A stretch of DNA of 15,885 bases, from positions 5,795 through 21,679 of the forward strand of contig MHFL01000009.1 in the NCBI GenBank assembly GCA_001804165.1, given 5' to 3'. The first letter of the stretch is position 1. Each line of letters begins with the position of its first letter. Source of the stretch: Omnitrophica bacterium RIFCSPLOWO2_01_FULL_45_10. GTDB lineage: Bacteria; Omnitrophota; Gorgyraeia; 2-01-FULL-45-10. The position numbers and the translations under genes were made by a program. The notes under the pieces are model-generated. The model was not told where the DNA came from. It searched no databases and was given only the letters and a program-made list of their open reading frames with translations. Below are positions 7,176 to 15,885 of this stretch, one piece after another.

Positions 7176-7180
7176 GTTTA

Positions 7181-7279
7181 GTATATCGCATATCGTAAAT
7201 CGTATATCGAAAAAAACAAAATACGGAATACGATGTACGAAGGACGAAGGACGATTTACGAACGACGAACGACGAAACG
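7181..7279 (+). repeat. Heptanucleotide-periodic repeat with inverted arms, in the accD leader
   Basis: The spacer between the corrinoid gene and accD is almost wholly repeat. ATCG occurs four times at exact 7-nt steps (7185, 7192, 7199, 7206). After an A-rich break, ACG occurs eight times at exact 7-nt steps (7223, 7230, 7237, 7244, 7251, 7258, 7265, 7272), often as ACGAAGG or ACGAACG. The two arms have opposite polarity: CGTAAATCGT (7194-7203) is a perfect inverted copy of ACGATTTACG (7251-7260), and CGTATATCG (7201-7209) pairs with CGATGTACG (7231-7239) with one wobble. The transcript could therefore fold. I see no open frame and no clear Shine-Dalgarno here. Confidence 0.85.
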
Positions 7280-9226: not shown

Positions 9227-10330
9227 ATGGCACAAGTAAGTTTAAAGGATGTATCTAAGGTATTCGGTGGCAATGTCTGGGCCGTCAAGAAGGTCAATCT
9301 GGGCGTTGAGAATAAGGAGTTCGTTGTCCTTGTTGGGCCATCGGGCTGCGGGAAGTCGACCACATTAAGGATAATAGCAGGACTCGAAGAGGCCACAGAC
9401 GGCGATGTCTACATCGGAAATCAATTGGTCAATGACGTTCCTCCAAAGGATAGAAATATCGCCATGGTATTTCAGAATTACGCGCTCTACCCGCATATGA
9501 CCGTTTATGATAACATGGCATTCGGCCTTAAATTGAGAAAGTACCCCAAGCAGGAGATAGATACCAGAGTCAGGGAAGCCGCAAGCATTCTTGGTATAGA
9601 AACGCTTCTTCGCAGGAAACCGAGGGAATTGTCAGGCGGCCAGCGGCAAAGGGTGGCCGTGGGACGGGCAATAGTCAGAAAAACGCTCGTTTTTCTATTC
9701 GATGAGCCGCTATCGAAGCTGGACGCGAAGATGAGGGTCCAGATGCGCGTAGAGATAAAGAAACTGCATACGAGGCTCCAGACCACTATGATTTACGTGA
9801 CGCACGATCAGACCGAAGCCATGACGATGGGGGATAGGATAGTTGTTATGAAAGACGGCATTATTCAGCAGATCGCGGACCCCCTCACTCTCTACGATAA
9901 GCCGGTTAATAGGTTCGTAGCCGGATTCATCGGCAGCCCTCCCATGAACTTCGTGAACGGCAATATAGTAAGAAAGAACGGGAAATTATATTTTAACCAG
10001 GGACATTTTCAAGTGAAGATAATAGATGCCATGATACAACTATTGGCGCCATATGTAGATAAAGAGATTATATTTGGAGTAAGGCCCGAAGATATATATG
10101 ACAAACTGTTTGTTACAGATGCCCCGCCCGAGAACACTATTAAAGCGACATGCGAGGTCATAGAGCCGATGGGGTCGGAAGTATATCTATATCTCAACAC
10201 AGGAGCGAATTCTTTAGTTGCGAGGGTTGGCGGACATGATAAGCCCATCGTCAATCAGGACATAGATTTGGTATTAGATATGGCAAAGGCGCATTTTTTC
10301 AATAAAGACACCGATGAGACGATTATTTAA
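9227..10330 (+). CDS. ugpC: Sugar ABC transporter ATP-binding protein, UgpC/MalK/MsmX family
   Basis: This is the cytoplasmic ATPase of a CUT1-type carbohydrate importer, 367 residues long. Motifs appear in order: Walker A GPSGCGKST (37-45), Q-loop Gln83, signature LSGGQ (135-139), Walker B FLFDE (156-160), D-loop SKLD (163-166, where SNLD is usual) and H-loop His193. A C-terminal MalK-type regulatory domain (about 235-367) contains GVRPEDI and VIEPMGSEVYLYL. The ribosome-binding site AAGGGG (9215-9220) lies 6 nt before the ATG. No permease or binding-protein gene is adjacent. That is common for this family, whose members can power several importers. The symbol is a family label: MalK, MsmX or UgpC cannot be separated without substrate data. 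A hairpin follows the stop codon directly. Confidence 0.93.
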   Translation: MAQVSLKDVSKVFGGNVWAVKKVNLGVENKEFVVLVGPSGCGKSTTLRIIAGLEEATDGDVYIGNQLVNDVPPKDRNIAMVFQNYALYPHMTVYDNMAFGLKLRKYPKQEIDTRVREAASILGIETLLRRKPRELSGGQRQRVAVGRAIVRKTLVFLFDEPLSKLDAKMRVQMRVEIKKLHTRLQTTMIYVTHDQTEAMTMGDRIVVMKDGIIQQIADPLTLYDKPVNRFVAGFIGSPPMNFVNGNIVRKNGKLYFNQGHFQVKIIDAMIQLLAPYVDKEIIFGVRPEDIYDKLFVTDAPPENTIKATCEVIEPMGSEVYLYLNTGANSLVARVGGHDKPIVNQDIDLVLDMAKAHFFNKDTDETII

Positions 10331-10359
10331 CCCAAATTTTTCCTTTATAAAAATTTGGG
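10331..10359 (+). terminator. Hairpin directly after the ABC ATPase gene, possible terminator
   Basis: CCCAAATTTTT (10331-10341) and AAAAATTTGGG (10349-10359) form a perfect 11-bp inverted repeat around a 7-nt loop, starting at the base after the TAA. The stem is AT-rich with only three G-C pairs, and no U-tract follows on the + strand. It may be a weak bidirectional terminator or a 3'-end stabilising hairpin; termination is not certain. Confidence 0.5.
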
Positions 10360-10371
10360 ATTAATAATTAG

Positions 10372-13144: not shown

Positions 13145-13792
13145 ATGAAACTGTTCATCGATACGGCTAATATAGATGAGATAAAGGAGGCGAATGCTCT
13201 CGGTATAATTGACGGAGTGACTACAAATCCATCTCTTATCGCGAAAGAAGGTAGAGATTTTATTACTGTAGTCAAAGAGATATGCTCCATAGTTGACGGG
13301 CCGATAAGCGCGGAGGCAGTGAGCTCGAAATCGGATGAGATAATAAAAGAGGCGCGTAATTTAACAAAAGTACACAAGAATATAGTTGTGAAGATACCGA
13401 TAACAGCGGAAGGATTAAAGGCTACCAAAGTTTTGTCAAGGGAAGGCGTCAAGACCAATTTGACTTTATGTTTTTCTCCGACTCAGGCGCTTCTCGCCGC
13501 CAAGGCAGGAGCCACTTATGTGAGTCCGTTTATAGGTCGGCTTGACGATATAAGCGAGGTAGGGATAGATTTGATACGGGATATAAAGGCAATATTCACA
13601 AATTACGGCATTAAGACGCAAATAATCGTGGCGAGCATAAGAAATTCGGTCCACGTGCTTGAGGCCGCCAAGATAGGCGCGGATATAGCCACGGTTCCTT
13701 ATAATGTATTGAAGGCCTTACTCAAACACCCGCTTACTGACATTGGAATAGATAGATTCCTAAAGGATTGGCAGAGTGTTTCCAGGAAATAG
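13145..13792 (+). CDS. tal: Transaldolase, small TalC/fructose-6-phosphate aldolase type
   Basis: This is a class I aldolase-fold enzyme of the short transaldolase group. It would transfer dihydroxyacetone units between sugar phosphates in the non-oxidative pentose-phosphate pathway, or cleave fructose 6-phosphate. At 215 residues it is the right length. Landmarks are [25 protein letters not shown], the Schiff-base lysine Lys83 in [28 protein letters not shown] and the C-terminal [15 protein letters not shown]. Ribosome-binding site GGAGG (13131-13135) lies 9 nt before the ATG. An earlier ATG (13140) reads ATGAAATGA and stops at once, so it is not the start. Whether it is transaldolase or aldolase cannot be settled from these motifs. 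lptD begins inside its last 17 bases in another frame. Confidence 0.93.
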
Positions 13793-15885
13793 ACAAAGTC
13801 CTTATACTTCGAAAATTTTTAAAACTTTTATCCTAACACTTATTTTCTATACGCTATACGCTTCCGCCTTTGGCGGATCCGCCAATCTTTGTGGCGGAAT
13901 ACGTTATACGCTATACGCAGAAGAGCCGCCGTCGAAAGAGCCAATCGTCGTCAACGGTGACGAAGTAGAATATTTCCACGAGAAGAAGGTAGTCGTCGGC
14001 AGGGGGAACGTCTCCATTACGTATAAAGACGTCATCCTGACCTGCGACAAGATAGAAGTTTATTTAGACACAAAAAACGCGGTTTGCGAAGGAAATGTCA
14101 AAATAACCCAAAAGGGCGCCTATTTTACCGGCGAAAGGATTGAATATAATTTTGAATCCAAAACAGGCCGCACTCTTAGCGCATACGTAAATTATAACCC
14201 CTTCTATGGCAGGGCCCAGGAGATAGCCAAGCTTGGCGATAAAGAAGCCGTTCTCAATAGAGGCTATGTAACGACCTGCGATCTTGAGAAGCCTCACTAC
14301 AGGGTTCAATCCAGACAAATCAGGATATATTTTGACGATAGAGTGACCGCGAAGCATGTCCTGTTCTTCATCGGCAATGTCCCTATCTTATACATCCCTT
14401 ATTATGTCCAGCCCCTGAAGCAGAAAAAAACCCATATGACAGTCATTCCTGGAGAGAGCAGGGATTGGGGTTATTATGTATTGACCGCGTACAGATATTA
14501 CATAAACGACGATAATTCGGGCGATCTGCTTTTAGATTACAGGACCAAAAAGGGGTTAGGAGAAGGCATCAACCATTATTACGATACCAAGTCGGTTGGC
14601 AAGGGATCTGTGAAGTTTTATTATACGAACGAAAATGACGACCTGGCATACGAGAAAGCAGTAGAGGAGCGTTCCAGATACCGTTTTCAGGTCAGGCATC
14701 GCTGGGACATGGGGGAAGACAAGGATACGGTTGGCATATTCGAATTAAACAAGGTGAGCGACAAAGACGGCATAAAGGATTACTTCTATAAGGAATATGA
14801 GGAGCAGGGAGCTATCGATAATTATATTTCGGTGATAACCGCTAAAGAAGATTACACCGCTGAATTTTTGTTGAGGAAGCGTTTTGATAAATTCTTTAAC
14901 GTGGTCCAACGCCTGCCTGAGTTTAAAATAAATATTCAGAATTATAATTTTAAAGGCACCCATCTTTATTATGCCTCCGAGATGAGCGGCGTATATTTGA
15001 ATGAGACCTTCGAGAAACAAGTGCCTAGCGAGAAAGATATCAAGGTGGTCCGTTTTGACGCCTACAATCAACTGTCCTACGCCCAAAGACTTTTTGGGTC
15101 TCTAAGCGTCACGCCTTATGCAGGGACGCGTCAGACATATTATTCGCGCAACAAGTGGGGCGAGACGAATCTTATCAGAGGGATATTCAGGGCGGGCGTT
15201 GATAATTCGGTAAAGTTTTACAGGATATATGATGTTATGACCGATTTTCTCAGCCTTGATATAAATAAGTTAAGACACATAATTACTCCAACGGCAAATT
15301 ACTCCTACACTCATCAGCCGACTATTTCGCCGGATAATCTGAATCAGTTTGACTCAATAGATTCCATCGATACCGCGAACGGCATTACCCTTTCCCTGGA
15401 AAATAAATTGCAGACCAAAAGGCCGTACGGCAACATGATGAAATCCGTCGATTTAGCCACTCTCATCATTAGTTCACAATACGACTTCAGGCTAAAAGAT
15501 GACTTAACGAGTTATAAGTCTCAGAAATTCAAGAGCGTAGATTTTAGGCTGGAACTCGTGCCGTATCCGTGGCTTTATACGCTCGCGAAGATGACGGTCA
15601 ATACAAAAAAATATCTGATAGAGTCGGAGAGTGTGGACCTGGTGGCTCAAAGGGGAGACAAATTCTCTTTGGGCTTAGGCCATAGATATGAGAACGCCGA
15701 AAGCGGTAAGTCAAACTTGTTGACATTGGACGCGACTTATAAGATAAATGATAAGTGGAAGGCACGCGCATATGAAAGATTCGATGTGCATAAAAGTTCA
15801 ATAGAGGAGCAGGAATATACGATATATAGAGACCTGCATTGCTGGCTGGCGGAATTGACATACAATATTAAACGAGACACCAGCG
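13776..15885 (+). CDS. lptD: LptD/OstA-type LPS-assembly outer-membrane protein, 3' end cut off
   Basis: LptD is the outer-membrane barrel that inserts lipopolysaccharide into the outer leaflet; its presence implies a diderm envelope. The frame is open from a TAA at 13761 to the window end (703 codons) and has no early ATG. GTG 13776, with AAAGGA (13762-13767) 8 nt upstream, is the only good start. Residues 1-31 form a signal peptide: Arg6, Lys13 and Lys16, then the hydrophobic [17 protein letters not shown]. An OstA/LptA-like domain follows (about 55-165: [47 protein letters not shown]). The barrel part starts near [16 protein letters not shown] (about 195-210) and is rich in alternating aromatic strands. 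The N-terminus carries a 57-nt repeat insertion, listed separately. The match is to family features; the barrel is divergent. Confidence 0.87.
13848..13918 (+). repeat. Palindromic element between heptamer direct repeats, inside the lptD signal peptide
   Basis: TATACGCTATACGC occurs at 13848-13861 and 13905-13918, 57 nt apart. Both copies are made of 7-nt units with ACG at 13851 and 13858, and at 13901, 13908 and 13915. Between them lie two abutting palindromes: TCCGCC-TTT-GGCGGA (13863-13877) and TCCGCCA-ATCTTTG-TGGCGGA (13878-13898), joined by the 12-bp palindrome GGCGGATCCGCC (13872-13883). The unit is exactly 19 codons, so the lptD frame is kept and YTLYA appears twice (residues 25-29 and 44-48). 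Confidence 0.85.

Follow-up and report, generated by a model that had tools for sequence, protein, structure and literature searches.

A dispersed palindrome nested in a heptanucleotide array lies in frame in the likely signal-peptide region of an Omnitrophota lptD gene

Rickettsia palindromic elements (RPEs), together with comparable elements of Wolbachia, are described as lying in frame inside conserved protein genes (PMC2229807, PMC3767692), with lengths in Rickettsia of 105-146 bp (PMC2229807). GTAG- and CGTC-tagged REP elements are palindromes of 20-40 bp, present in many copies and found, in different organisms, also within coding regions (PMC3733652). The Yersinia YPAL/RU-2 element, a mobile repeat of about 168 bp, is reported to contribute, in frame, to a predicted signal peptide (Delihas 2007, reviewed in PMC2229807). 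Direct repeats with a 7-nt unit are likewise documented. According to MacGregor 2015 (PMC4679880), the TAACTGA heptamers of Beggiatoaceae, Cyanobacteria and Bacteroidetes are stop-free on one strand and encode one repeating heptapeptide; they are mostly intergenic, and the few inside ORFs are mostly at protein ends. Dispersed tandem 7-nt units are described for Calothrix and Nostoc and, as GGGAATC repeats, for Xanthomonas, and heptamers are stated to be over-represented in many bacteria (PMC4692102).

The locus reported here has features of each of these systems and, by the tests made, belongs to none of them. No paper on repeats in Omnitrophota was among the best-ranked literature matches, which is not proof of absence. 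The stretch of DNA analysed, hereafter the window, has 15,885 nt and lies within contig C9 of an Omnitrophota draft genome (G000, hereafter the own genome; 1,433,776 bases, 64 contigs, 86.7% complete). Its relevant features are these:

13145-13792: transaldolase/fructose-6-phosphate aldolase gene (PF00923), adjoining lptD upstream
13776-15884, plus strand: lptD, an open frame with a GTG start that runs past the end of the window
13827-13871, plus strand: hydrophobic stretch (F18-F32 in the translation) of the likely signal peptide, about half of it encoded by array plus palindrome
13848-13862, plus strand: left part of the heptamer array, TATACGC TATACGC T
13863-13898, plus strand: 36-nt double-hairpin palindrome of 12 codons, recognised by its fold, its other copies and its freedom from stops in six frames
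13899-13918, plus strand: right part of the heptamer array, ATACGT TATACGC TATACGC

The segment 13848-13918 consists of two repeat families, the palindrome being nested in the heptamer array. Exact copies of TATACGCTATACGC occur at 13848-13861 and 13905-13918, spaced 57 nt, and with up to three mismatches there are five sites, against a shuffle mean of 1.3 (at least five sites in 2 of 200 shuffles). TTGGCGGATCCGCCAA is a perfect palindrome at 13870-13885 (shuffle mean 0.04 with up to three mismatches) within the layout TCCGCC TTT GGCGGA TCCGCC AATCTTTGT GGCGGA. Folded as RNA, the 36 nt are predicted to form two adjacent hairpins (-20.5 kcal/mol, z -4.2), a value that none of 200 shuffles reached, and this copy is open in all six reading frames. 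When the flanks are joined without the 36 nt, they fit (TATACGC)5 at 34 of 35 positions. Translation from the GTG at 13776 crosses the whole element without a stop, and the proposal of an initial sequence-only reading, that a palindrome-bearing direct-repeat interval lies in frame in the signal-peptide region of lptD, is thus borne out. That reading had taken the 57-nt interval as the inserted element; the spacing of the direct repeats is real, but the interval is not a single unit, its flanks being a separate heptamer-array family. Insertion of the 57 nt as one unit is ruled out, a 35-nt array and a 36-nt palindrome accounting for all 71 nt. A known structured RNA was also rejected as an identification, no Rfam family reaching its gathering threshold in the window or in seven repeat loci.

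The lptD product is 64-67% identical to the first five homologues listed, some homologues being named LPS-assembly protein or LptD, and residues 59-129 give a marginal match to Pfam LptD_N (PF03968; 22.4 bits versus a cut-off of 20.4). Its best 15-residue hydropathy window falls within the likely signal-peptide region, which would be expected to work as a signal peptide, with cleavage possibly at A31 or A48. The translation has A-S-A at residues 29-31, in agreement with the AxA site that had been proposed there. As in the YPAL/RU-2 case, in-frame repeat DNA supplies part of a likely signal peptide; the Yersinia example, as it is reviewed in PMC2229807, concerns a putative new exported protein, whereas here a conserved protein of the envelope is affected, by two repeats of far smaller size.

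The 19 extra residues that the sequence-only reading ascribed to LptD are supported by comparison with its relatives. The region preceding a conserved VNGD-like motif comprises 58 aa in the own protein and 39 aa in that of G001, which is 68% identical to it over 46-699; in 19 of 29 other loci it comprises 31-50 aa. Longer regions are found in G016 (59 aa, with a heptamer array of its own), G013 (82 aa), G020 (88 aa) and three others with long extra domains, so length alone does not set the own lptD apart; the remaining loci in this count comprise one with a misplaced motif, two without the motif and one that is truncated. In a MAFFT alignment with nine of the closest homologues the extra block is present only in the own LptD. 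The first 120 residues of 120 LptD homologues contain no convincing palindrome-type peptide (two four-letter matches look like chance), and a 21-base pattern found the palindrome in no other lptD gene among the 38 genomes searched. The aligned relatives thus lack the block and the palindrome has other copies, the reverse on both counts of what had been named as counting against the proposal. Among the relatives searched, which included no same-genus genome, no two strains were found that differ in having the palindrome at this site. The N-terminus of one homologue, P0003, containing FSYTLYLIPYTLSYAAEPPSKEP, is by eye close to the own sequence without the palindrome, and therefore suggests, from this one protein and with gaps placed differently from those that MAFFT sets, that in lptD the array preceded the palindrome.

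Two further observations concern LptD N-termini. Those of P0006, P0009, P0051, P0055 and P0083 contain, at the protein level, strings resembling LAMT or RGAKRRSNL...RPRNDI, which resemble a translation of the third repeat described below (at L269 and L033); more than two repeat families may therefore feed the lptD N-terminus. P0046 and P0083 start with sequence like that of the transaldolase encoded upstream (MKLLTDTANIDE, VKLFIDTAG), which is what a deletion joining the talC start to lptD would give.

The palindrome is a dispersed repeat with in-frame copies in other conserved genes, as the comparison with RPEs in the sequence-only reading had implied. A 27-base pattern with up to three mismatches and a right-hand loop fixed at 9 nt gave hits at five positions of the own genome and, across the phylum, in 54 of 384 genomes, the reversed pattern giving no match in the same 384; the stricter 21-base pattern found only three copies in 38 genomes. 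From 110 places listed, some of which are one palindrome read on both strands, 21 copies were chosen, comprising the five own-genome copies, seven other extracted loci and nine hand-picked copies, with 0 or 1 mismatch. Six of these lie in frame within recognised genes (lptD, recA, pyrD, carB, and genes for a chorismate-binding enzyme and a cytochrome-c-type protein), and the other 15 are between genes or in ORFs without an identified family. In recA of G008 the palindrome is near the N-terminus in the opposite orientation (33 of 36 bases), in pyrD of G068 it is at an internal net insertion of 12 residues relative to 1ep1, and in carB of G044 (locus L261) it lies between the two CarB halves. 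The copy in the chorismate-binding enzyme of G079 (L274), with only 3 of 6 bases in its left stem, is in a longer composite insertion and sits in a longer repeat that is common to L279; the remaining in-frame copy is that in the cytochrome-c-type protein of G128.

A frame-preserving length is common for the palindrome. Six of the 21 copies have 36 nt (left loop 3) and nine have 42 nt (left loop 9), the left loop being set by the best stem match and ties being assigned to 3 or 9. It is not a rule, because the other six copies deviate (35, 37, 38, 40, 40 and 43 nt), giving an overall range of 35-43 nt. For the intergenic copy on C43, a fold that includes the flanking sequence is unremarkable (z -1.2). 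Among the 21 copies, flanks above the lag-7 threshold were found only at lptD. Those of L261 (carB of G044) and L277 (G040) are weakly heptamer-like, with 9 and 10 of 14 lag-7 matches against a threshold of 11; lag 6 gave 10 at L261, and a preference of the palindrome for heptamer arrays may or may not be indicated. L269 (G000:C49:27577) and L033 (G000:C43:9198) share a third repeat, with GTCATTGCGAGG- and CGCAATGAC-like ends, and at each of them a palindrome copy is next to this repeat or within it.

The likeness to RPEs, as these are described in the sources cited above, holds by analogy: both are palindromic with stable stem-loops (two hairpins in the lptD copy) and occur in frame in conserved genes. 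It does not extend to membership, the Omnitrophota element being a double hairpin of 35-43 nt rather than 105-146 bp, whose lptD copy has six open frames and a heptamer array around it. In-frame placement of a palindrome is also less special than had been implied, since GTAG/CGTC REPs, likewise short and multi-copy, also occur within coding regions, although the account in PMC3733652 describes no heptamer arrays with them. In those Omnitrophota copies that were inspected by eye, no shared GTAG or CGTC tag, a REP feature, lies beside the stems. REP elements have an associated transposase.

We propose, with a rough probability of 0.75, that the lptD signal-peptide region gathered two dispersed repeats, selfish or slippage-made, in succession, both being tolerated through an open frame. 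The hydrophobic core would first have acquired a TATACGC run as the coding sequence of its last part, and the 36-nt double-hairpin palindrome would then have split the array after a T, with ATACG as the next bases on the far side; the two repeats would, in that case, be mobile and nearly neutral at this site. Because 7 and 3 share no factor, a heptamer array encodes one and the same seven-residue peptide in every frame (YTLYAIR in lptD) and can reside in a gene wherever its strand is free of stops, and the palindrome, stop-free in six frames and mostly 36 or 42 nt long, hence a whole number of codons, is frame-neutral; both could be tolerated in lptD because translation stays open. A signal peptide would be a permissive site because it needs hydrophobicity and not a sequence, such that hydrophobic units might be tolerated in signal peptides and charged units in loops. 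The copies seen in genes would be those that did no harm, recruitment for use being possible and not needed.

Arrays at a lag of n nt, heptamers being n = 7, were scored where 18 or more bases in a run of 21 were identical to the base n nt further along. The own-genome sample of 323,040 bases was drawn from contigs 1-20, with at most 20 kb from the start of each; the exception is C10:10001-30000, which was chosen for an IspG array and supplies both IspG arrays of this genome. It contains 17 arrays at lag 7, eight at lag 14 (harmonic) and one at lag 11, with none at lags 4, 5, 6, 8, 9, 10, 12, 13 or 15. G023 has 24 lag-7 arrays in 273 kb, with one each at lags 6 and 8, and G025 has 20 in 236 kb (lag 8, five; lag 12, three; lag 6, two; lags 9 and 13, one each). 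No clear lag-7 excess was found in G012 (two in 400 kb, with lag 12 also two), G035 (three in 400 kb), G018 (one in 200 kb) or G010 (none in 200 kb, with one at lag 10). The density of the arrays is hence lineage-specific. Of 67 arrays, 31 are internal to ORFs, 13 near the N-terminus, four C-terminal and 19 intergenic, under a crude longest-ORF rule by which some arrays called internal may be wrong; the array at L126:4054 is probably an untranslated leader, and translation of TrpS (L133) may begin after its array. Overlap with ORF calls is seen for 48 of the 67, compared with 88-98% of sampled bases, so that arrays are under-represented in genes, as is expected if many insertions harm.

NCBIfam names nine of ten scanned own-genome array proteins, the tenth having no match: IspG, HisF, MiaB, MtaB, MnmE, Alr, TrpS, a glutamate synthase subunit and a MEMO-type fusion. 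In each of the five aligned with solved structures the array corresponds to an insertion, of 7 residues in HisF, 18 in MiaB, about 22 in MnmE and 9 in Alr; IspG has 31 residues at its array versus 13 in 3noy, with a further 6 extra residues downstream at a second array. The IspG search matched 33 of 38 genomes; in 14 of these the alignment splits at or near own residues 136-148 and 161-170, at the first array, and in the others it is continuous through this site. The second IspG site of G002 has the same TATACGC array as the own genome.

These arrays resemble the TAACTGA repeats, as described in PMC4679880, in being direct 7-nt arrays, with lag 7 in excess over other lags in the own genome. 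They differ in that one unit is involved there, whereas Omnitrophota have many units per genome, in frame in core enzymes and in signal-peptide-like leaders. The cyanobacterial and Xanthomonas heptamers are reported to be in excess in intergenic DNA and depleted on the coding strand of ORFs, and the term "signal peptide" is absent from the main text of that source (PMC4692102). Neither TAACTGA nor its reverse complement is present among the 17 own-genome arrays. The cyanobacterial heptanucleotide repeats are, we assume, those known as STRR.

The strongest competitor to our reading, which we regard as possible though clearly short of even odds, is that the heptamer half is not dispersed, polymerase slippage having duplicated a local 7-nt seed in place, with the palindrome as the only mobile partner. 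Slippage would fit the variety of units within one genome (TATACGC, GGACGAA, ATCGGGT, GTAGACC, AAGGGTC and others in the own genome) and the first IspG site, where the own genome has ATCGGGT-type and G002 AACCGAA-type units; slippage with a 7-nt preference has, moreover, already been proposed for bacterial heptamer repeats, as set out in PMC4679880 and PMC4692102. However, one unit recurs at many places per genome, several times as short-spacer inverted pairs, which count against slippage because slippage alone does not make them. TATACGC doublets with up to one mismatch occur 29 times in the own genome versus four in the reversed control, and units recur across families of the phylum.

Loci from 30 of 35 lptD-bearing genomes were taken, and with the truncated G037 dropped, 29 lptD genes had enough sequence for a search between start and mature domain for at least 12 of 14 lag-7 matches. 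Nine N-terminal regions contain an array (G000, G002, G003, G007, G008, G014, G016, G023 and G025), and five or more kinds of unit occur among them; none of the 29 has a run at lags 5, 8, 10, 11 or 13, and none of 395 equal-length windows in lptD gene bodies reaches the threshold. The lptD N-terminus is thus a hot spot for heptamer arrays, although 9/29 overstates the independent events because the TTTCAGC-like units of G002, G003 and G007 may descend from a common ancestor, and shared ancestry enters all counts made across relatives. In G014, G023 and G025 the hydrophobic core of LptD is LLVTGYW, encoded by ACTGGTT. In 12 genomes at least 34 ACTGGTT arrays are present, of which we inspected 30: all 16 of a first set and 14 of a second set of at least 18, from which four listed arrays were not taken and to which G266 would add more. 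Ten of the 30 form, by eye, the hydrophobic core of a signal-peptide-like or lipoprotein leader, including three in lptD and one in lptE; six are C-terminal, 14 are intergenic or unclear and none is clearly gene-internal. With a rough rule, the share of sampled bases lying in such cores is estimated at about 0.5-0.8%, giving an expectation of about 0.2 in 30 at random. The comparison is not blind, because its presence in lptD was the reason for choosing the unit; excluding the three copies there leaves 7/27.

This concentration of ACTGGTT cores, together with the strong mRNA hairpins close to the lptD start, is what speaks for a second alternative, that the repeats are kept as useful, the arrays having been recruited as signal-peptide cores or the hairpin regulating lptD translation. 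We consider it unlikely, since arrays with charged peptides are found in cytoplasmic enzymes, where no use is plausible, 20 of the 29 N-terminal regions of lptD fall below the array threshold, and the palindrome and its peptide have no convincing counterpart in the other lptD genes and homologues surveyed. That the region is untranslated or the start wrong, and the frame accidental, is very improbable, since, although the GTG overlaps the 3' end of the upstream transaldolase gene, no other in-frame ATG, GTG or TTG is present from 13776 to 14200, which disposes of a start downstream, and the GTG is supported by the start context, M-x-x-K/R-N type N-terminus and ensuing hydrophobic stretch that many relatives have in common.

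Beyond the accumulation of two repeats at lptD, a wider proposal can be made tentatively, at somewhat below even odds. Omnitrophota heptamer arrays may be a frame-blind source of protein parts, with hydrophobic units (LLVTGYW, FSFQLSA, YTLYAIR) as ready-made signal-peptide cores and charged units as loops; they would come and go repeatedly at the same permissive positions in essential genes, one unit also being replaced there by another, through some copying mechanism that advances in 7-nt steps, the frame-neutral palindrome spreading in the same niche. Junk-like DNA seems to keep supplying parts of essential proteins in this phylum. If the proposal is true, it would constitute a route from selfish or slippage-made DNA to working protein in free-living bacteria, taken many times in one phylum and supplying both signal peptides and loops of essential enzymes. 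The frame-independence of heptamers offers a simple, testable reason why 7-nt repeats can live in genes. For annotators, unusual strings like LLVTGYW or YTLYAIR in Omnitrophota proteins are likely to represent repeat DNA and not sequence errors.

Outside lptD, the window contains a further element of heptamer type:

7180-7278, intergenic: second heptamer-like element with, by eye, ATCG-type units on the left and ACGA-type units on the right in an inverted arrangement

The arrays of this element, which presumably lies between a corrinoid-protein-like ORF and an accD-like ORF, read RRSSFVNRPSSFVH on the minus strand; the segment 7170-7285 folds at -23.3 kcal/mol, and 8 of 200 shuffles fold as well. 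In two other genomes ORFs start directly in TATACGC arrays, giving MFSLYAIRYTLYAIRYTL at L115 (G009:C67) and MRFYTLYAIRYTLILAVLLIIP, which is signal-peptide-like, at L100 (G011:C65). The window also carries a terminator-like inverted repeat at 10322-10368, with 20-nt arms that are 90% complementary and 7 nt apart, between what we take to be an ABC-ATPase-like gene and a GGDEF-like gene.
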